Positions 1,234 through 10,356 of a DNA stretch of 10,356 nucleotides are shown here, piece by piece. Both the position numbers and the translations under genes were made by a program. Where the stretch lies: assembly GCA_008501785.1 (NCBI GenBank), contig QQUD01000702.1, positions 1 through 10,356 of the forward strand, given 5' to 3'. The number at the start of each line of letters is the position of its first letter. The stretch's first letter is position 1. The notes under the pieces are model-generated. The model did not search any database, was not told where the DNA came from, and saw only the letters and a program-made list of their open reading frames with translations. The stretch is from Chloroflexota bacterium. GTDB taxonomy: Bacteria; Chloroflexota; Anaerolineae; Promineifilales; Promineifilaceae.

Positions 1234-1239
1234 ATTGTG

Positions 1240-4200
1240 ATGAAACGCACACTATTTTTCCGTGTATTTATGTTGGTTGGGATGATAACGGCCGTTATCA
1301 CCCCCGCCTGCCGCCAAAACCAAACCAATTCGGCCACCACACTCGAAGCAACCCAAGCAGTCCGCTTCGAACCCGTTCTCGAACCAACTCAGCAACCAAC
1401 CGCCACGCCCGAGCCAACAATGCCAGTTGAATTTTCTGGCGACGGGCTGGAAGCGATTTTTTACAGCAGCTACGAACTCGACGACCTGCCGCCCGACACG
1501 CCCCTCACCGTTTACTTCAGCGAACCCATGAACAGCGCACACAATCGCCCTTTGTTATTCTCACCCTCGGTTGGTGGCAAATTTTCATGGAATGACGACC
1601 ACACCATGCTTACCTTTCAGCCTGAACCTGCTTTCCTAAGTGGTCGCGGCTACACAGTCTCCGTCAATGCCAGTCTGGAGAGCAGCGCAGGCGAAAAATT
1701 CTCACCCATTCAGCGTTGGCGCGTCCACATGCGCGATGTGCCAGCCGTTTCGCGCCGCCTGCCCAACGATACCCAGTTCAGCGAATACAAACCGTCTATC
1801 CTGCTCCAATTTAGTCGCACAATGAACCATGAATCAACACAATCTGCGCTTTCTGTGTCACCGCCAATTGGTTTTGAAACAACCTGGATTGTGCAAGAGT
1901 TGCAAATCACGCTCACTGAACCGATGCAGTTTGGCAAAGAGTATGAATTTACGTTGGCAAAAACGGCCGTTTCCATCAACCGCGAGCACATGATCCAACC
2001 CTACACCTGGAGCATCCGCCTCAGCGACACGATGAGAACCGCCACCTGGCCCACCCAAAGCAATCCAGACAGTCCCCTTGCCCTTGATTTCAACTATCCT
2101 ATCGACATCACGCAGCTAGAAACAATCGCCGCCATCGAACCCGCCATTGGCGGCAGTTGGACTTGGAACGAAGAGAACACGAGTGCTGTGTTTGAGCCAA
2201 ACGGCCGTTTCCCCACCGACACCGCCTACACCGTCACCTTCCCCAACCCGCTGTTCGACCAGGAGCAACACGCCCTGCCACAGCCAGAACCATTCACATT
2301 TACCACACCATCCGCTATCCTGTCCGCCAAACCAGCACACGACAGCACCATGGTCGCCTCCAAAATCGAAATCCAATTTGACCGGCCCATGAATCAAGAA
2401 GCAGCCGAAACGGCCGTTTCCATCACCCCCACCACCGACGGCACATTCGTTTGGGAAGACAACACCCTGTACTTCACACCCGAAACCGGCTACTTGCAAC
2501 CCACCACCCAATACACCGTTACCATCAACCCATCCGCCATCAGCGCAGATGGCGAAATTGTGCTGCAAGATGATTACAACTGGTCATTCCGCACCGGCTC
2601 CCTCACCACGCTGGCATCATTTGGCAGTGGGCCAAATGTGCAGGTTGTCGATGAAAACGGCCGTCGCGCCATTCAATTCCAGGCCACAACCACCAACGCC
2701 ATTCTGGTCTCATTTGAACTGTACCAATATGGACTCGATCAATTTTTGCCCGCCTACGTCACGCATTTTCGCGAATCGTGGTGGGGAGACGACCAAACCA
2801 TCATCGACACCAGCAATTTGCGGCTCGTGGCCGAGTGGCAAATGGAAACGGCTCAATCCGCAAACGAGTGGGAAAATATTCAAGAAACAATATTACCCAA
2901 TGAAGCAGACACCGGTTTATACGTCCTCAATCTCAAGGCCGGTGAACTAAACGATCAGCTGTTTGTTGTGTTGTCCGATGCAGCCATTACGGCAAAAATT
3001 GGCGATGAGCAAGTTATCGCCTGGGTGACGGACATCAACGGCGACGTGCTGCCAGATGTGCCAGTGTGGGTGTATGCCCGAAACGGCCGTATTCTCACCG
3101 AAGGCAGCACCAACAGCCTTGGCATCTTCGAAAGCAGCCTATCCAACTTCCTCGACAACGACACCACCGATGACACCCCCATGCTCGTCGTTGCCGAACA
3201 TGCAGGCAAACTGACAATAACCGGCTTGCAACACCATTGGCGAAATGGAGGCTATTGGCGTTGGGAATCAACCACTACGCATCCGAGTGACTATGCGATT
3301 TATACCTACACCGACCGTCCCATCTACCGCCCTGGGCACACTGTTTACTTCAAATCAATCATTCGCGATGACAATGATGCTGAGTTGAGCATTGTGGATG
3401 CGGGGGTTCCCGTTTCTGCTCAAATCCGCGACGCACGCAACAATCTCGTGCGCACCATCGACCTGCGCACCAACGATTTTGGCACGGTGAATGGCGAATT
3501 CACCATCGCCGATGGCGCTATGCTGGGAACCTACCACGTCGAAATCGTGGTCAACGGCGAAATGCACAAGCAGGCATTCAAAGTTGAAGATTATCGCAAG
3601 CCAGACTACGAAGTCACCGTCACCACCGACCGTGAGCACTATTTCAAATCTGAAACCATCGAAATCACCGTTGATACCCGCTACTTCTTTGATGAACCAG
3701 TCGCTAACGCCGACATCGAAATCAATCGCTTTGAACTACAAGAAAACAATCAATGGTCAGGACAACCAGGCGACTATATCTGGTACGAATCTTACGGAAC
3801 GGCATTGCGCGGCACAACGGACGAAAACGGCCGTTTCACCACCACCATGCTCATCCCCCAAGACGTTTACTTCAACGACTACAACTATTATTACGGCAGC
3901 AATCTGCGACAAATCACTTGGGGATTAGAAGCCACCGTCAACGATGGCAGCAATCAAACCGTCTCCGGCTTCGCCGTTGTTGAACTGTTCAATGTTGCTG
4001 AAAAAATCAGCATCGACCACAACGGCTACAGCCACAAACCCGGTGAGCCAGTTACGATTCAAGCCACCGTCACCGATTTAGACGGCACGCCCATTAACAA
4101 TCGCGACCTGACCGTCAAACTGCTGCGCTACAACAGCAGCAGCTACAACTACGACACAACCATCCTTACCGAATCGTTTACCACCGATGCATCAGGAACG

Positions 4201-7053
4201 GCCGTTACCCAATTCACCACCGACGAACCGGGCTACTATCGCCTATCCGTTGAAGGGTTCGACAGCCGCAACCGTCGCATCAAAAATCAAAGCTGGCTCT
4301 ACATCTTTGATGGTGAAACGCCCAGTTGGTACGGTGGCGACAACGACATCAACATTTCGGCTGAAAAAGTGACGTATGTGGCGGGAGAAACGGCCGTTTT
4401 GCTCATCGAATCGTCGTTTGCTGGCCCCGGACTGCTCACCATCGAGCGCGGCACCGTGCGCCGTGAAGAACTGGTGACGCTCACGCCGCCGATCACCCGC
4501 GTCGAGCTGCCCATCATCGCTACCGATGCGCCCAACATTTACGTCACCATCAATGGCTGGGAACCACTCGACAATTCACTCGAAAACCTCACCTACGAAA
4601 GCGTGCCAGACAGCAGGCTGCGCAAAGCCTCGGTCAACTTGTCCGTGCCCGCCACCGACAAACAGCTATCCGTCGCCATCACGCCAGACAAAGAAACCTA
4701 CGCCCCAGGCGAAGAAGCCACCTTCACCGTGCGCGTCACCAATCACGCAGGCGTACCCGTCTCCGCAGAGGTGTCGATGGCACTGGTCGATGAAGCCATT
4801 TTTGCCCTGAGCGATGAACTTTCTGGCCCCATCTATGACGGGTTTTACTTCGAACGCGCCAACGGCATCCGCACCTACCACAGCATGTCTCCGTCGCGCT
4901 ATTTGGGTGGCGGCATGGGTGGCGGCGGCGGTGACGGTCTTTCAGCCCAATCACCGCGTCAAGATTTTCAGGATACGGCCGTTTGGCAACCCACCCTCAC
5001 CACCGATTTCAACGGCGAAGCAACCCTCACCGTCACCCTGCCCGATAATCTGACGCGCTGGCGCATGACGGCCAAAGCCGCCACCGCCGACACGCAGGTT
5101 GGCGAAACTACGACCACAATTGTGACGCAGCAAGATGTGTTGATACGGCCGTTACTGCCCCGCATCCTCACCACCGGCGACAACATCCAGCTAACCGCCC
5201 TCATCCACAACAACACCAGCGCAGCACAAAACCTCGCCGTCTCCCTGCAAGAAGTTGGCGAAACGGCACGACTCGACATCCAGGCTCCCATCACCCAAAC
5301 GCTCGCGCTGGCAGCGGGTGAAGTCCGCGCCGTGGGCTGGTCCGTCAGCGGCAGCAGCGCAGGCGACACCGAACTGCTCGTATTGGCCCAATTTAGTGAA
5401 GATGGAGACGCGCCTAATCCAACAGGAACTGCCGACGCCATCAAACTGCCGCTCACCGTGCAGCCATTAGCCATTCCCAACGTTGACGTCGAAATTGGGC
5501 AGTTCACCAGTTCACACACCGCCCAAATCACGCTACCAGATGATGCAATGGAACTGTCCACCGTCAACATTCAACTCAGCCGCTCCATCGCAGGCAGCAT
5601 GTTAGATGGCCTGAACGACCTCACTGGCTACCCGTATGGCTGCGTCGAGCAAACAATGAGCAAGGCCCTGCCCAACGCCGTCGTTGGACGCGCCCTCACA
5701 CAGCTAGGCATCCCCATGCCCGATGAGCTGCCCAACCAAATTAAGGCAGGCGTGCAGCGCCTATATGGCTTCCAACACGAAGACGGCGGCTGGGGCTGGT
5801 GGCACGACGACAAAACAGACATCTATCAAACTGCCTGGGTCATTTTTGGACTCACGCAAACCGCCCAAGCCGGTTACGAAGTAGACCCACTCGTTATCGA
5901 ACGGGGTGCCATCTGGCTCAAAGAAAATCTAAGCAGCATGGACGAACGCACCCGCGCTTTTGCGCTGTACAGTCTCGCCTTGGCCGGTCACGGTGACATC
6001 GACGCCCCGCAAAAGCTCGTCGATCAACGAGACGAGCTGGACACATTTGCTCACGCCGCGCTGGCCTTGACGCTGCACGAATTGGGTGACACGGCTACGG
6101 CCTTTGAAATGGTCGAACTGCTCACGGACACAGCCATTGTCACAGAAGGACGTGCTCACTGGGATGGCGCAACTCACGATGGCAGTTACTCGCGCAAAAC
6201 AATGGCCTCTGCCACGCGCAATACCGCCATCGCCCTCAGCGCCTTATCCACCATCCAGCCGGGACACTCGCTAGAAGCCGACATTGTGCGCTGGCTAATG
6301 TCGCAGCGGCGGCAATTTGGCTGGGGCACAACCAACGAGACATCGTTTGCTGTGCTGGGGTTGACAGACCATCTACTAGCTTCTGGATACGCCGAAAATG
6401 CCAGCGAAACTGGGTTTACGGTATTGATAAACGGTGAAACCTTCAGCACTGGCACGTTAAATCGTGGCGAACCGACACTGACAGTCTCTATTCCACGTTC
6501 GGCATTGGCTGATGAGAATGAGATTGTGATCATGCAGGATGGGGAACGGCCGTTATACTTCGTCATCACCAGCCGTATCTACCAACCACAAGGCACGATT
6601 GAAGCAAACGGTGTTGTCACAATCGACCGCACCTACTTCGATTTAGAAACAGATGAGCCAACCACCAGCTTCGAAGCAGGTGAATTAGTCAAAGTCCAGC
6701 TCGCCCTTACCTTGCCAGATGCAGCCAGCTATCTGATCATCGAAGACAAGCTGCCTGCTGGCCTGGAAGCACTCAACGAAGGCCTGAACACCAGCAGCCA
6801 CATCAGCCAAGCGTATAATGAGCCACCTCGCTATTACTGGGAAGAGTACGGCTACAATCAGAAAGAGATTCGCGGCGACCGGGTGAGCTTCTTCGTCACC
6901 GAACTCAATGCAGGCAGCCGCACCTTCAGCTACATCGCCCGCGCCACGCAGTCCGGCAGCTTCACCGCCATGCCTGCCGAGGTATCCGCCATGTACGATC
7001 CAACCATATGGGGTCACTCCACCAGCGACGAAATCATCATCCGTTCAAAATAA
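1240..7053 (+). CDS. Alpha-2-macroglobulin family lipoprotein with thioester
   Basis: A 1937-residue secreted protein of the bacterial alpha-2-macroglobulin family, which traps attacking proteases on the cell surface. A basic, hydrophobic leader (MKRTLFFRVFMLVG) ends in ITPAC, so Cys24 is a likely lipid anchor, although -3 is T rather than L/V/I. A Thr/Pro/Gln-rich linker (about 25-63) follows. Four Big_5-like domains occupy about 68-162, 167-262, 268-355 and 358-453. MG domains follow, with the family hallmark YTYTDRPIYRPGHTVYFK at about 688. A Gly-rich stretch (1223-1233) precedes the A2M core block (FQDTAVWQPTL, DNLTRWRM); a bait-like exposed segment here is inferred. The thioester motif CVEQ is at 1468-1471, followed by a toroid-type thioester domain to about 1720. 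The C-terminus (about 1790-1937) resembles bacterial MG10. It is longer than E. coli YfhM (about 1650) mainly through its N-terminal domains. No neighbouring penicillin-binding protein gene is visible. Twelve of the sixteen ACGGCCGT palindromes lie in this gene. Confidence 0.95.
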   Translation: MKRTLFFRVFMLVGMITAVITPACRQNQTNSATTLEATQAVRFEPVLEPTQQPTATPEPTMPVEFSGDGLEAIFYSSYELDDLPPDTPLTVYFSEPMNSAHNRPLLFSPSVGGKFSWNDDHTMLTFQPEPAFLSGRGYTVSVNASLESSAGEKFSPIQRWRVHMRDVPAVSRRLPNDTQFSEYKPSILLQFSRTMNHESTQSALSVSPPIGFETTWIVQELQITLTEPMQFGKEYEFTLAKTAVSINREHMIQPYTWSIRLSDTMRTATWPTQSNPDSPLALDFNYPIDITQLETIAAIEPAIGGSWTWNEENTSAVFEPNGRFPTDTAYTVTFPNPLFDQEQHALPQPEPFTFTTPSAILSAKPAHDSTMVASKIEIQFDRPMNQEAAETAVSITPTTDGTFVWEDNTLYFTPETGYLQPTTQYTVTINPSAISADGEIVLQDDYNWSFRTGSLTTLASFGSGPNVQVVDENGRRAIQFQATTTNAILVSFELYQYGLDQFLPAYVTHFRESWWGDDQTIIDTSNLRLVAEWQMETAQSANEWENIQETILPNEADTGLYVLNLKAGELNDQLFVVLSDAAITAKIGDEQVIAWVTDINGDVLPDVPVWVYARNGRILTEGSTNSLGIFESSLSNFLDNDTTDDTPMLVVAEHAGKLTITGLQHHWRNGGYWRWESTTTHPSDYAIYTYTDRPIYRPGHTVYFKSIIRDDNDAELSIVDAGVPVSAQIRDARNNLVRTIDLRTNDFGTVNGEFTIADGAMLGTYHVEIVVNGEMHKQAFKVEDYRKPDYEVTVTTDREHYFKSETIEITVDTRYFFDEPVANADIEINRFELQENNQWSGQPGDYIWYESYGTALRGTTDENGRFTTTMLIPQDVYFNDYNYYYGSNLRQITWGLEATVNDGSNQTVSGFAVVELFNVAEKISIDHNGYSHKPGEPVTIQATVTDLDGTPINNRDLTVKLLRYNSSSYNYDTTILTESFTTDASGTAVTQFTTDEPGYYRLSVEGFDSRNRRIKNQSWLYIFDGETPSWYGGDNDINISAEKVTYVAGETAVLLIESSFAGPGLLTIERGTVRREELVTLTPPITRVELPIIATDAPNIYVTINGWEPLDNSLENLTYESVPDSRLRKASVNLSVPATDKQLSVAITPDKETYAPGEEATFTVRVTNHAGVPVSAEVSMALVDEAIFALSDELSGPIYDGFYFERANGIRTYHSMSPSRYLGGGMGGGGGDGLSAQSPRQDFQDTAVWQPTLTTDFNGEATLTVTLPDNLTRWRMTAKAATADTQVGETTTTIVTQQDVLIRPLLPRILTTGDNIQLTALIHNNTSAAQNLAVSLQEVGETARLDIQAPITQTLALAAGEVRAVGWSVSGSSAGDTELLVLAQFSEDGDAPNPTGTADAIKLPLTVQPLAIPNVDVEIGQFTSSHTAQITLPDDAMELSTVNIQLSRSIAGSMLDGLNDLTGYPYGCVEQTMSKALPNAVVGRALTQLGIPMPDELPNQIKAGVQRLYGFQHEDGGWGWWHDDKTDIYQTAWVIFGLTQTAQAGYEVDPLVIERGAIWLKENLSSMDERTRAFALYSLALAGHGDIDAPQKLVDQRDELDTFAHAALALTLHELGDTATAFEMVELLTDTAIVTEGRAHWDGATHDGSYSRKTMASATRNTAIALSALSTIQPGHSLEADIVRWLMSQRRQFGWGTTNETSFAVLGLTDHLLASGYAENASETGFTVLINGETFSTGTLNRGEPTLTVSIPRSALADENEIVIMQDGERPLYFVITSRIYQPQGTIEANGVVTIDRTYFDLETDEPTTSFEAGELVKVQLALTLPDAASYLIIEDKLPAGLEALNEGLNTSSHISQAYNEPPRYYWEEYGYNQKEIRGDRVSFFVTELNAGSRTFSYIARATQSGSFTAMPAEVSAMYDPTIWGHSTSDEIIIRSK

Positions 7054-7070
7054 CCACACACCTCCCGTAG

Positions 7071-7134
7071 GGGCTAGGCAGCGCGGAAAAATTGTGGCCA
7101 AAACAAATAATTTCATCTCCGCGCTGCCTCGCCC
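7071..7134. repeat. Hairpin A of the compound repeat
   Basis: GGGCTAGGCAGCGCGGA (7071-7087) pairs with the arm at 7118-7134 with a single mismatch over 17 bp. The loop is AT-rich. It starts 18 nt after the macroglobulin stop codon. A run of pyrimidines rather than pure T follows, so termination is possible but not shown. Confidence 0.75.
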
Positions 7135-7145
7135 TTCTTCTCCCA

Positions 7146-7217
7146 GTAGAGGGCGAGGCAATCGGGAGCCATCGCTATCTGCTTTGATAAAGTAATTCCC
7201 GATTGCCTCGCCCCTAC
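7146..7217. repeat. Hairpin B of the compound repeat
   Basis: GGGCGAGGCAATCGGGA (7151-7167) is a perfect 17-bp complement of 7197-7213. The pairing continues to GTAG/CTAC at the base with one bulged A at 7150. It shares GAGGCA with hairpin A, but the inner part (ATCGGGA instead of GCGCGGA) differs on both arms. Confidence 0.75.
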
Positions 7218-7228
7218 CTTTAAATTTA

Positions 7229-7245
7229 TGTTGAAAAATTCAACA
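7229..7245. promoter_or_regulatory. 17-bp dyad upstream of the MerR gene, candidate operator
   Basis: TGTTGAA-AAA-TTCAACA is a perfect inverted repeat in AT-rich DNA, 20 bp before the MerR start codon. TTGAAA (7231-7236) with AAAATA (7255-7260) at an 18-bp spacing could be promoter boxes. An autoregulatory operator is a reasonable but unproven reading. Confidence 0.35.
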
Positions 7246-7265
7246 ATTTAGCCGAAAATACCATC

Positions 7266-8039
7266 ATGAGGGAGACACCTGAACCAAACAAACCACTGCG
7301 CACCTCTGAGGTTGCCAAAGCTGCTGGCGTACACCCCAACACTGTGCGCCTGTACGAAGAATGGGGATTTTTGCCCCCTATTCCACGTAGCGCGAACGGC
7401 TACCGGCAGTTCAGTGAGTTCCACAAAGACCAAATGATTCTGGCACGAATGGCGCTGCACGGTGGCTGGCCGGGGCGCAAAATCAGGCATTCGGCATTAA
7501 TACTGGTGCGTTGTGCAGCCACAGGTGACTTGCAAGATGCGTTATCACAGGCAAAACACCATCAAACATTGGTGCTGGTAGAGAAAGAGTGTGCGGAAAC
7601 GGCCGTTTCCATCCTCGAAAATTGGATCCACAACAAAAAACTTGATAACCACACACCCCTCCTAACCATTAGCCAAACCGCCAAACGACTCGACATCTCC
7701 ATCGACATGCTGCGCGATTGGGAACGAAATGGCCTGCTCACCCCATCCCGGCATCCCAAAAACAACTATCGTCAATATGGACCTGCGGAAATGGGACGGC
7801 TACGTGTTATCCGCACCTTGCGGCTGGCAGGCTACAGCCTCCTATCCATTTTGCGCATGTTGTTAGAACTCGACCACGATCATTCTGCAGATGTCCGTCA
7901 CCTGCTAGACACACCTGATCCTGAAGATGACATTCAATATGCAACAAACCAATGGCTGTCCACCCTCGCCCATCACGAAAAACGGGCCGCAAACCTCGTT
8001 ACACAATTAACAACAATGGTGCACAAATACCACGCCTAA
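7266..8039 (+). CDS. Transcriptional regulator with two MerR-type DNA-binding domains
   Basis: A 257-residue cytoplasmic DNA-binding protein. Residues about 11-79 form a MerR winged helix (RTSEVAKAAGVHPNTVRLYE, then GFLPPIPRSANGYRQF). Residues about 133-200 form a second one (LTISQTAKRLDISIDMLRDW, then NGLLTPSRHPKNNYRQY). Classical MerR proteins have one such domain followed by a dimerisation helix and an effector site, so two in one chain is unusual. The C-terminal 55 residues look helical. No Cys cluster of the SoxR type and no obvious metal-binding Cys/His set is seen, so the effector is unknown. The start at 7266 has no clear Shine-Dalgarno sequence; translation of a leaderless or weakly initiated message is possible. 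A GGAAACGGCCGTTTCC palindrome sits in the linker between the domains. The flavodoxin-ferredoxin gene 94 bp downstream is the most obvious candidate target. Confidence 0.9.
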   Translation: MRETPEPNKPLRTSEVAKAAGVHPNTVRLYEEWGFLPPIPRSANGYRQFSEFHKDQMILARMALHGGWPGRKIRHSALILVRCAATGDLQDALSQAKHHQTLVLVEKECAETAVSILENWIHNKKLDNHTPLLTISQTAKRLDISIDMLRDWERNGLLTPSRHPKNNYRQYGPAEMGRLRVIRTLRLAGYSLLSILRMLLELDHDHSADVRHLLDTPDPEDDIQYATNQWLSTLAHHEKRAANLVTQLTTMVHKYHA

Positions 8040-8071
8040 TCCCCAAACCCTCCACTATTCCCCCAGGGTTG

Positions 8072-8091
8072 TAGACTGAAAGTATTGTCTA
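8072..8091. promoter_or_regulatory. Dyad TAGAC-N10-GTCTA, candidate regulator site
   Basis: A 20-bp interrupted inverted repeat lies between the MerR stop codon and the next start. TAAAAT (8090-8095) overlaps its right arm and could be a -10 box, with TTGTAG (8069-8074) as a poor -35 only 15 bp away. The site could bind the upstream MerR-type protein. The promoter spacing does not fit the long 19-20 bp spacer typical of MerR targets, so confidence is low. Confidence 0.3.
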
Positions 8092-8097
8092 AAATCC

Positions 8098-8112
8098 AGG
8101 TGCGTCGCACCT
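8098..8112. repeat. Short palindrome AGGTGCGTCGCACCT
   Basis: A perfect 7-bp inverted repeat around one central T, 21 bp before the flavodoxin-ferredoxin start codon. It could be an operator, a small hairpin in the leader, or one more member of the interspersed repeats. No T-tract follows. Confidence 0.45.
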
Positions 8113-8124
8113 AAACACCCAAAC

Positions 8125-8130
8125 GAGGGA
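8125..8130 (+). promoter_or_regulatory. Ribosome binding site
   Basis: GAGGGA lies 3 nt before ATG 8134, with its GAGG core 5 nt away. This supports that start codon. Confidence 0.6.
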
Positions 8131-8133
8131 AAA

Positions 8134-8940
8134 ATGAAAGGGATACTTTTTTACCACTCCAACTCAGGCAACACACAATTAGTTTGCAACACCCTGCAAC
8201 ACCAACTACAAGCAGTTAAGTTAACCCTGCACGATGTGGCAGACAAACCGCTGCCGGATATGAACCAGTTTGATATTGTTGGCTTTGCGACATGGACATA
8301 TTTCTTGGGGCTGCCCCCGTTCTTTCAAACCTTTTTAGATGATCTGCCACAGCAAACGGGCAAACCAGCCTTTGCTATGAACACATTCGGCATGATGTCT
8401 GGACAAGCCATAAAACGGTTGACCGACCAACTGAACGCAAAAGGATTCGTGGTTATAGCTGCTCATTCGTTGCACACGCCAGAGAGTTATCCTCCCTACA
8501 TTATCAAGGGTTGGGACAACATAGATGCACCAGACACGAAATTGCTTAAGGCATTCCACAATTTTATTGGGGAATTGGATAAAAAACTGACTCAGCTTAT
8601 TCAAGACACACCTGTAACAAAAACGAACGTTAAGATTGGGCTGTTTAATCATTTAATACGGCCGTATTCCCTCACAAAAGCCCGCAAGCAAATGGGCACG
8701 CTGTTTGTCGACACCAATTTATGTACCGAATGCGGCCTCTGCGCAGAAAAATGCCTCTACAATGCCATCACCATGAATCCAAACCCCATGTTCGATGCGG
8801 AAAAATGTCACGTGTGCTGGGCTTGTTTTAATCACTGCCCTGAAAAAGCCATCTTCACCGAAAAAATCAAAAGTGTAGGGCATTACTCGGAACCCAATCC
8901 TCATTTTACCGAAAAAATGAGCGTTGAAAAAGTCTATTAA
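8134..8940 (+). CDS. EFR1-type flavodoxin plus 2[4Fe-4S] ferredoxin fusion protein
   Basis: A 268-residue cytoplasmic electron-transfer protein. The N-terminal part (about 1-160) is flavodoxin-like: it starts with GILFYHSNSGNTQ, where SNSGNT is the expected FMN phosphate loop, and has the family segment FATWTYFLGLPPFFQTFLDD. The C-terminal part has two complete CxxCxxCxxxC cluster motifs, at Cys197/200/203/207 (CTECGLCAEKC) and Cys225/228/231/235 (CHVCWACFNHCP). All eight ligands are present, so two [4Fe-4S] clusters are expected. This layout matches the EFR1 family of ferredoxins. Its redox partners are not known from the sequence. The start has a good Shine-Dalgarno sequence. The gene follows the tandem MerR gene by 94 bp on the same strand, with two dyads between them, so control by that regulator is plausible. 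Confidence 0.92.
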   Translation: MKGILFYHSNSGNTQLVCNTLQHQLQAVKLTLHDVADKPLPDMNQFDIVGFATWTYFLGLPPFFQTFLDDLPQQTGKPAFAMNTFGMMSGQAIKRLTDQLNAKGFVVIAAHSLHTPESYPPYIIKGWDNIDAPDTKLLKAFHNFIGELDKKLTQLIQDTPVTKTNVKIGLFNHLIRPYSLTKARKQMGTLFVDTNLCTECGLCAEKCLYNAITMNPNPMFDAEKCHVCWACFNHCPEKAIFTEKIKSVGHYSEPNPHFTEKMSVEKVY

Positions 8941-8972
8941 ATAATTATGGCTCACTAGGATTTCGGAAGTTC

Positions 8973-9031
8973 GGAGTGGAGGCTTTAGCCGGTTCTCACG
9001 GGACCGTTCCGGCAAAGCCTCCACTCCTTTT
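8973..9031 (+). terminator. Hairpin repeat with T tail, possible terminator
   Basis: GGAGTGGAGGCTTTAGCC (from 8973) pairs with the arm ending at 9027. The stem is 19 bp with one bulged A, and TTTT (9028-9031) follows. A 16-nt loop separates the arms. It begins 32 nt after the flavodoxin-ferredoxin stop codon and could end that transcript. The T run is short, and the arm sequence looks like an interspersed repeat family, so a dedicated terminator is not certain. Confidence 0.5.
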
Positions 9032-9068
9032 GAACTACAAACTCCTATTTACCCCAAAAAGGTCAATC

Positions 9069-10356
9069 ATGAAAAACGAAATCATCATTAAAAATGCACG
9101 ATTACATAATTTAAAAAACGTCTCTTTGACGATTCCTAAAAACCAACTAGTCGTTATCACTGGTGTGTCTGGCTCTGGGAAGTCTTCACTGGCATTTGAT
9201 ACCCTACACAAAGAAGGTCAGCGGCAATATTTGGAATCAATGGGCATGATCACAGATTATCTAAACAAGCCAGAAGTGGATTCCATTCAAGGGTTGTCGC
9301 CATCGATTAGCATCGACCAACACTTAACCAATCGCAGCCCCCGTTCAACAGTGGGAACGGCAACGGAAGTGTACACATATCTGCGACTATTGTTTGCGCG
9401 AATGGGACATCGTCCGTGCCCGCATTGTGGCAAAATTCTCCCGCCATCTTACAACAATGATACAAATGGGGCGTGGGATGATGAACCGGATGTGTTGCAG
9501 GAAGGACTGCCGTGTCTGCATTGTAAAACGGCCGTTTCCGACCTCAGCATGTCCCATTTCTCCTTCAACAAGCCAATGGGAGCCTGCCCCTCCTGCACCG
9601 GCCTCGGCGTTACCAATGAAGCCAACCTCAATTTACTGCTTGACGAATCATTAAGCATCCTGGATGGCGGTGTAGTGCGCTGGGACAAACACGAAATCGC
9701 CCGCTACCAAAAAGCATTGAAAATTGGTGCTAAACATTTTGGCTTTACATTTGACCCAGCACAGCCAATTGGAACATTGAACAATGTGCAGCGCGACTTT
9801 TTAATTTATGGCGTTACCAGTCCACGTTTTTGTCGCCACTTTCCAGATATTTCGCCGCCGGAGACTGCGGGAAACGGCCGTTTTGAAGGCGTTGCCACTA
9901 ATTTACTACGCCGCTACTCCGAAAACGCTAGCAAAGCTACCTATCGCGAAAAAATTGAAAAGCTGCTAATCACCCAAACCTGCCCCGACTGTGCCGGAAC
10001 CCGACTGCGCCCCGAAAGTCGCGCCGTTACCATTGCCGGGAAAAGCATCGTAGACATTGCCGAAATGTCTTTGAGTGATGTGGCAACCTGGATTGAACAA
10101 TTGCCAAACATGGTTGGGTCAGAAGGCATGGCCATCATCGACCCCATCCTCATCGACTTGCGCGAACGGTTGCGCAGGTTAATTGATGTTGGCGTCGGGT
10201 ATTTGACATTGGCGAGGTCTTCTCCATCTTTGTCGGCGGGTGAGGCGCAGCGGCTGCGGTTGGCGGCGCTGCTTGGATCAGGGCTTACCGGCATCTTATA
10301 CGTGCTAGATGAACCAACCACGGGGCTTCATCCACGCGACACGGCAAAATTGCAAA
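9069..10356 (+). CDS. UvrA paralogue without UvrB-binding domain (UvrA2/DrrC-like), N-terminal part
   Basis: The frame is open to the window end and gives 429 residues. It is a tandem-ABC DNA-damage-recognition ATPase of the UvrA family. Visible are Walker A GVSGSGKSS (32-40), the UvrA block LSPSISIDQ (76-84), PRSTVGT (91-97), CPHCG (117-121), the first zinc module Cys149/152 and Cys173/176 (FSFNKPMGACPSCTGLG), the ABC signature LSAGEAQRLRLA (388-399, with Ala at the third position instead of Gly) and Walker B with ILYVLDEPTTGLHPRD (409-424). Only 28 residues separate Cys120 from Cys149. In true UvrA the UvrB-binding domain of more than 100 residues sits there, so it is missing. Such short UvrAs are associated with UvrA2 of Deinococcus and drug-resistance proteins of Streptomyces. 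The start is supported by AAAAAGG 6 nt upstream. The second ATPase half lies beyond the window. Confidence 0.93.
   Translation, partial: MKNEIIIKNARLHNLKNVSLTIPKNQLVVITGVSGSGKSSLAFDTLHKEGQRQYLESMGMITDYLNKPEVDSIQGLSPSISIDQHLTNRSPRSTVGTATEVYTYLRLLFARMGHRPCPHCGKILPPSYNNDTNGAWDDEPDVLQEGLPCLHCKTAVSDLSMSHFSFNKPMGACPSCTGLGVTNEANLNLLLDESLSILDGGVVRWDKHEIARYQKALKIGAKHFGFTFDPAQPIGTLNNVQRDFLIYGVTSPRFCRHFPDISPPETAGNGRFEGVATNLLRRYSENASKATYREKIEKLLITQTCPDCAGTRLRPESRAVTIAGKSIVDIAEMSLSDVATWIEQLPNMVGSEGMAIIDPILIDLRERLRRLIDVGVGYLTLARSSPSLSAGEAQRLRLAALLGSGLTGILYVLDEPTTGLHPRDTAKLQ

Follow-up and report, generated by a model that had tools for sequence, protein, structure and literature searches.

Why one palindromic octamer, ACGGCCGT, should occur sixteen times in a short stretch of bacterial DNA is the question raised by contig QQUD01000702.1 (assembly GCA_008501785.1) of a Chloroflexota bacterium. 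The whole stretch analysed, 10,356 nucleotides in length, is called the window in the following. The initial annotation likened the octamer to HIP1, the highly iterated palindrome (HIP) of cyanobacteria, and proposed that it acts on DNA and not on protein. ACGGCCGT proves to be a genuine HIP, clade-wide and not cyanobacterial, and a halo of skewed base composition, which is larger at older sites, suggests that every copy is the scene of a strand-polar activity.

Iteration of the octamer in the window and in related genomes

The 16 exact copies of ACGGCCGT span positions 1288 to 9881 of the window, far above chance: the expected number is 0.17 according to 200 dinucleotide shuffles, of which the richest contained 2 copies and none (0/200) reached 16. 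All 16 CGGCCG hexamers in the window are flanked by A and T, and half of the sites (8/16) are part of the longer form AAACGGCCGTTT. Sites fall into the three codon phases as 8/5/3, and encode Thr-Ala-Val, x-Gly-Arg and x-Arg-Pro-x, respectively. None of the 16 resides in non-coding DNA, which amounts to only 1,057 bases between the listed open reading frames; non-coding sites are found in relatives. The number of copies, the A and T flanks, the longer form of half of the sites, the three tripeptides and the absence from non-coding DNA had been listed in the initial annotation, and all survived a recount. No octamer of any kind is commoner in the window than ACGGCCGT.

Relatives were found by scanning genome contigs, which provided 80 loci with a top identity of about 52%. 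ACGGCCGT is the top palindromic octamer in 8 of the 80, at 68 to 177 times the level set by base composition. Sixteen of the loci derive from 15 genomes, 8 of which carry 6,316-15,031 copies. Among 298 genomes drawn from the class of genome G005 (genomes are denoted by G numbers), 8 exceed 1,000 copies per Mb, four of them already known from the loci. The distinct high-copy genomes are 12, and contain 5,641-15,031 copies each (1.15-2.1 per kb), or one per ~500 to 900 letters. Below these, the class sample falls to 2,982 copies in 5.8 Mb (G292), 1,727 in 4.1 Mb (G164) and 1,189 in 7.4 Mb (G216). The reversed octamer, used as control, occurs 96-255 times across the same 12 genomes. In 779 kb of G001, G246, G002 and G004, 1,594 copies were counted, where an order-3 Markov model of the remaining sequence predicts 23.4. 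Genome-wide iteration, with counts far above the Markov expectation and copies not confined to the locus, had been anticipated, and is borne out in the genomes of relatives, to which the genome-wide counts refer. A literature search, mostly at the level of titles and abstract openings, returned no account of such a palindrome in Chloroflexota.

Some regions and genomes stand apart. No ACGGCCGT is present in G001:C12:1-4587, a stretch read as a ribosomal RNA operon, and gaps of 7.4 and 6.5 kb surround the same long sensor-kinase-like gene in G001 and G002. The reversed octamer, TGCCGGCA, reaches 3,665 copies in 4.0 Mb in G011 (locus L016), with 5 in 4.7 kb. GCCGGC is extremely common in five genomes of the class sample (G043, G076, G104, G113 and G250; 18,163-25,403 copies in 2.9-3.9 Mb), so that other palindromes may be iterated in the class.

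Retention of the sites and effects on proteins

Site densities in the best-sampled group of relatives are nearly equal in coding (2.06 per kb; 1,417 sites) and non-coding DNA (1.80 per kb; 164 sites); in a second sample they measure 1.80 and 1.03 per kb, respectively. Spacing is near random (coefficient of variation 1.09, close to exponential). The coding sites of the best-sampled group are divided among the codon phases as 747/479/192, and the proteins are altered to match. Thr-Ala-Val occurs 6.8 times more often than predicted by amino-acid independence, 747/771 (97%) of the instances being encoded by the octamer; Asn/Asp/His/Tyr-Gly-Arg is 3.8 times in excess, 479/581 (82%) being octamer-coded. 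The same ratios are 0.7-0.9 and 1.0-1.2 in low-copy genomes. Here a DNA word reshapes proteins, nearly every Thr-Ala-Val in them being written by the octamer. A preference for codons or peptides would fit the unequal phases, but is refuted by the nearly equal density in non-coding DNA, by the three unrelated tripeptides and by low-copy genomes without tripeptide excess; the excess over the Markov expectation likewise refutes chance.

Sites are retained place by place, above the background set by all octamers, as a comparison of orthologues advised by the initial annotation revealed. Between G001 and G246 (86.1% identity) 66/77 sites are conserved vs 39% of all octamers, between G001 and G002 74/94 vs 39%, and between G001 and G004 (81.3% identity) 43/53 vs 29%. 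At 66-73% identity counts are small: 4/11 sites of G001 are shared with G005, 4/14 with G006 and 1/8 with G007, the figure for all octamers being 9-10%. In the long gene of the window, the octamer is found at 25/76 aligned places in 8 HIP+ orthologues, vs 4.4% for all octamers. At position 3827, Asn-Gly-Arg and the octamer are present in 8/8 HIP+ orthologues, and NGQ, DGQ or DGR in the 5 HIP-less ones; the aligned codons are those at the same place in both sets, and the site originated from substitutions within them, no repeat having been inserted. The octamer is retained even at the cost of altered proteins. Whole-genome abundance, occurrence in all phases and in spacers, and retention all argue, as had been proposed, for an action on DNA and not on protein.

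Very high copy number, location in genes as in spacers and retention among relatives would also fit the molecular drive of a DNA uptake signal, spread via biased transformation. Known DNA uptake words are directional and non-palindromic. ACGGCCGT is a perfect palindrome, and hence has no direction, and the halo described below is not expected of an uptake signal, which makes this origin very unlikely.

The recognised unit

The unit is the full octamer and not its CGGCCG core by itself. Among one-off variants, only those changed at the outer position are in excess (TCGGCCGT, GCGGCCGT and CCGGCCGT at 5.0, 2.6 and 1.3 times expected), those changed at inner positions ranging from 0.3 to 1.6 of expectation. 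Persistence of the sites could be due to a Vsr-like nuclease restoring them from mismatches by very-short-patch repair. Against this, the transition neighbours ATGGCCGT and ACGACCGT are not depleted (1.39 and 1.63 times expected), and Vsr was identified in only 4/12 high-copy genomes and in none of those carrying the TCGGCCGA or GCGGCCGC variants described below; such repair is hardly credible as the cause. In G250, a Vsr gene adjoins a C5 methyltransferase gene.

The flanks of the core have switched in some relatives, to TCGGCCGA in G010 (87 copies in 78.6 kb) and G108 (28 in 20 kb), and to GCGGCCGC in G194 (35 in 23.6 kb). G108 and G194 had been selected as carriers of the methyltransferase family A3 (see below); a raised CGGCCG ratio is also seen in genomes beyond the sampled set, such as G242. 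In G164, G292, G009 and G216 the core is loose: CGGCCG is 3.9 to 8.3 times more frequent than expected, without fixed flanks. According to a quick RpoB tree of 30 chosen genomes, in which G211 forms a long branch and may be misread, all of the sampled genomes with CGGCCG-type palindromes belong to one clade of 22 (support of 100 in the Shimodaira-Hasegawa-like approximate likelihood ratio test, SH-aLRT). G050, G081 and G128 lie inside this clade, and lack the octamer.

A halo of skewed composition around the sites

On each strand, G prevails over C on the 5' side of the site, and the 3' side is C-rich. This GC-skew halo is a new feature, not noticed in the initial annotation, although the window shows it as well (mean +0.384, n=16; as high in 0/20,000 random draws). 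Around the exact ACGGCCGT of four genomes, the skew per site at 5-30 nt is +0.189 (z 31.6, n=1,593), and in other high-copy genomes +0.162 (n=296). It decays over about 100 nt, from +0.47 (3-4 nt) to +0.31 (7-10), +0.19 (11-20), +0.13 (21-30), +0.05 (41-60) and +0.02 (101-150), and is seen in coding and non-coding DNA. At four-fold sites the halo is about twice or more that at codon positions 1 and 2, and measures 0.57 (3-10 nt), 0.40 (11-20), 0.28 (21-30), 0.13 (31-60) and 0.07 (61-120). A also exceeds T at four-fold sites (+0.19 and +0.18 at 3-20 nt), and on either side an excess of GG is seen at positions -4 and -3.

The halo is also featured by the switched octamers (+0.224 and +0.146 at TCGGCCGA, +0.210 at GCGGCCGC). 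In the same four genomes none was found at CGGCCG with neither flank matching (z -0.2, n=564), it is near zero when one flank is off (z 0.9, 0.9 and 1.8; n=215, 236 and 127), and stays within z 2 at nine other palindromes.

Some ready explanations of the halo were discarded. The halo has codon periodicity only, and no helical period; gyrase-like wrapping was rejected as no periodicity of 10-11 nt is seen. No discrete flank motif was found, and a Chi-like one was dismissed, as nothing beyond general runs of G and of purines is seen in the flanks. An extended hairpin is not supported, mirrored positions pairing at about the rate predicted by composition. Deamination in a single-stranded gap predicts T over A together with G over C, whereas four-fold sites show A over T. 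A mutation hot spot is at odds with flank divergence, which is normal except 1-2 nt from the site.

The age of the sites allows the order of events to be judged. Counting distinct sites, those shared with a distant genome have a halo of +0.240 (n=37), unshared sites of +0.128 (n=44), and old and young sites differ with a permutation p of 0.007. At orthologous places without site the value is -0.028 (n=88). As empty orthologous places lack a halo, and old sites have more of it than young ones, the site probably precedes the halo. An outgroup split of gains and losses gave +0.154 at losses (n=4) and +0.017 at the empty places corresponding to gains (n=8), numbers too small to be firm.

These data bear on the possibility that a protein of the nucleoid, of segregation or of replication binds to the octamer, which would be directly selected for even occupancy of the chromosome, and that the halo is a preferred flank composition. 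Retention at each place, the bending of proteins and GG enrichment at both sides would suit such a site. Random spacing is contrary to even occupancy, a reach of ~100 nt without helical periodicity is long for binding contacts, and a halo that is missing from empty places and larger at old sites is no precondition for the site. A mere binding site is accordingly an unlikely explanation.

Candidate readers of the octamer

The initial annotation suggested looking for a cognate methyltransferase. The search provided a candidate family, and no enzyme of proven specificity. C5 methylases (PF00145) are absent in 5/12 high-copy genomes (G003, G004, G005, G180 and G226), and were discarded as a general cause. 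A search with PF01555 yielded two methyltransferase families, A2 and A3. A2 proteins (316-345 aa) are M.RsrI-like, and occur in 8/78 genomes and in only 5/12 of the high-copy ones, and A2 was rejected as the general reader.

A3 is an orphan methyltransferase family of about 660 aa with a large central insert, related to DUF1156/PglX methyltransferases. It was identified in 11/12 high-copy genomes and in 12/66 of the others searched, five of the latter with E values no better than 1e-43 to 1e-137. At E values up to 1e-60, A3 is found in 52/298 genomes of the class sample, including 7/8 high-copy ones (Fisher p 2e-5, which ignores kinship), and in 8/13 genomes in which CGGCCG is more than three times as frequent as GCCGGC (p 3e-4, which again ignores kinship). 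G004 and G005 are nearly empty of other PF01555 proteins, with 2 matches (best 4.6e-4) and 3 matches (best 4.3e-8), respectively. In the A3 tree, genomes of CGGCCG type occupy one part of the family, intermingled with octamer-less genomes. A comparison of ten genomes revealed no gene that adjoins A3 in all of them; some neighbours are common to G005/G180, G180/G081 and G050/G081/G128. A motif-I-like stretch appears to lie ahead of DPPY. As GCGGCCGC has no adenine, A3, if it is the reader, would have to be a cytosine methyltransferase. G008 aside, the genomes of the clade in which A3 is missing are those with loose flanks (G164, G216, G292 and G009), on two separate branches.

Methylation might by itself explain the palindrome, along the lines proposed by Elhai: CGGCCG or GGCC would be marked, and mark-guided mismatch repair would keep the mutations that complete the palindrome, the sites being a by-product free of function. 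The confinement of the one-off excess to the outer position agrees with this origin, as Elhai reports for HIP1, and so do the near-constant presence of A3 in high-copy genomes and the loose CGGCCG of the two A3-less branches (G164; G216/G292/G009). The 5 high-copy genomes devoid of C5 methylase do not, A3 is a candidate only and is not sufficient, and the halo is tied to the octamer and not to its six-letter core. This origin is rather doubtful.

Proposed activity at the sites

Lopsided composition around retained sites suggests that something acts on DNA there. We give an even chance to the view that ACGGCCGT, the HIP of one Chloroflexota clade with a core unlike that of HIP1, is worked on by a sequence-specific DNA-acting protein or complex. 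Such a protein or complex would work at the octamer, and sites would persist because the work is useful or itself restores them. The work would be strand-polar in both directions, and flanking synonymous positions would drift to G on the strand that enters the site in the 5' to 3' direction. A3, as an orphan N6/N4 DNA methyltransferase, would be the foremost candidate for reading the core, probably with a second, putative partner acting at the site. More tentatively, each ACGGCCGT could be an entry point from which a strand-polar DNA transaction proceeds both ways, with a durable footprint on the composition of the flanks; a fork barrier, a recombination start or a programmed nick or gap are examples. 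We lean somewhat against this more specific version.

Several observations weigh against these proposals. As to A3, its association with the octamer is confounded with descent, it was not found in high-copy G008, and its presence does not suffice: a CGGCCG-type palindrome occurs in only 2 (G194 and G108) of 19 additional A3 genomes, and G050, G081 and G128 carry A3 without the octamer inside the clade. As to the halo, weak forms are seen at loose CGGCCG in G164 (+0.062) and G292 (+0.089), the value being nil in G009 (+0.007), and at GCCGGC in G250 (+0.070). In close pairs, the genome lacking the site still shows a halo of +0.117 (n=95 ordered pairs), which may reflect recent loss, the reading preferred here, or a halo that preceded the site. 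Near conserved sites, substitution rates show no clear increase or decrease relative to controls, except for a rise at 1-2 nt. With near-normal divergence, the composition of the halo would result from a change in the direction of substitutions, not in their rate; selection or mutation could do so, and the rates are no ground to call the halo mutational or selected.

If the sites are entry points, what a highly iterated palindrome does could be read for the first time, from the halo growing with age, and changes in the reading protein would lie behind the switching of flanks among A..T, T..A and G..C. Among close relatives, flanks have been switched, the core has become loose or the octamer has been lost, and gene-content comparisons are thereby possible. 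As the halo is a measurable, age-ordered trace of activity, repair, replication barriers, recombination and binding lead to different predictions.

Location of the sites in the window

Sites and host genes are listed below. The alpha-2-macroglobulin-like gene hosts 12 sites, the MerR-like gene 1, the flavodoxin/4Fe-4S gene 1 and the UvrA-like gene 2; the partial gene for an M3 peptidase, on the left edge of the window, has none. The alpha-2-macroglobulin-like protein is nearest to Chloroflexota proteins, named matches being from Anaerolineales, Anaerolineae and Candidatus Leptofilum. A scan of the window against Rfam gave no matches. An intergenic frame of 103 aa on the minus strand (660-971) gives the impression of a translated dispersed intergenic repeat.

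Table 1. Copies of ACGGCCGT and genes hosting them in the window
Position	Strand	Feature	Remarks
1288..1295		site	Thr-Ala-Val, phase 0
1963..1970		site	Thr-Ala-Val; octamer also in 5 HIP+ orthologues
2201..2208		site	Asn-Gly-Arg; octamer also in 3 HIP+ orthologues
2410..2417		site	Thr-Ala-Val
2657..2664		site	Asn-Gly-Arg
3083..3090		site	Asn-Gly-Arg; octamer also in 2 HIP+ orthologues
3827..3834		site	Asn-Gly-Arg; octamer in 8/8 HIP+ orthologues compared, 0/5 others
4198..4205		site	Thr-Ala-Val; only site of the window without halo (skew 0.00)
4390..4397		site	Thr-Ala-Val
4975..4982		site	Thr-Ala-Val; octamer also in 2 HIP+ orthologues
5145..5152		site	Ile-Arg-Pro-Leu; octamer also in 1 HIP+ orthologue
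6546..6553		site	Glu-Arg-Pro-Leu; octamer also in 4 HIP+ orthologues
7599..7606		site	in MerR-like gene
8658..8665		site	in flavodoxin/4Fe-4S gene
9528..9535		site	in UvrA-like gene
9874..9881		site	in UvrA-like gene
1237..7053	+	alpha-2-macroglobulin-like protein	1938 aa; 12/16 sites
7266..8039	+	MerR-like regulator	two MerR matches
8134..8940	+	flavodoxin and 4Fe-4S domains	
9069..10355	+	UvrA-like protein	leaves the window; listed frame from 8976, start at 9069 is our reading

Comparison with known systems

Among N6/N4 methyltransferases of the DUF1156/PglX/CcrM type, A3 scores 75 bits with the DUF1156_antiphage model NF042963 and 80 bits with the PglXI model, far under the curated cut-off of 1000 bits; it also differs in its length and in having no conserved adjacent gene. 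M.Ssp6803II of Synechocystis, according to passages of PMC6604393, introduces N4-cytosine methylation in GGCC, which is the centre of ACGGCCGT; the likeness drawn here concerns the target.

Alternate HIPs, such as GGCGCC, rCCGGy and GGGATCCC, are described in single cyanobacteria in Elhai 2015 (PMC4390886). A GC-rich palindrome there replaces HIP1 in some cyanobacteria, as core and flanks switch among the relatives studied here. According to the abstract of that paper, alternate HIPs are sporadic and accompanied by a sequence-specific methyltransferase, whereas the core is clade-wide in Chloroflexota, and the methyltransferase a candidate only.

HIP1 itself (GCGATCGC) is the closest parallel, and the one drawn initially holds for abundance, occurrence in all phases and retention in relatives, although the core is CGATCG in cyanobacteria and CGGCCG in Chloroflexota. 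Both are octameric palindromes present at hundreds to thousands of copies per Mb genome-wide, and both have one-off variants at outer positions, as reported for HIP1 in PMC4390886. Proteins are bent by HIP1 as well: in plasmid stretches L286, L289 and L291, AIA occurs 113 times vs 19.7 expected (5.7 times), and 110/113 are HIP1-coded. The halo differs, being +0.029 at HIP1 (z 2.3, n=307; six partly homologous stretches of five cyanobacterial plasmids) vs +0.189 at ACGGCCGT. What makes cyanobacteria maintain HIP1 in thousands of copies has been an open question since 1995, a year taken from the reference list of PMC6604393. A second phylum with the same behaviour makes the phenomenon a general one.

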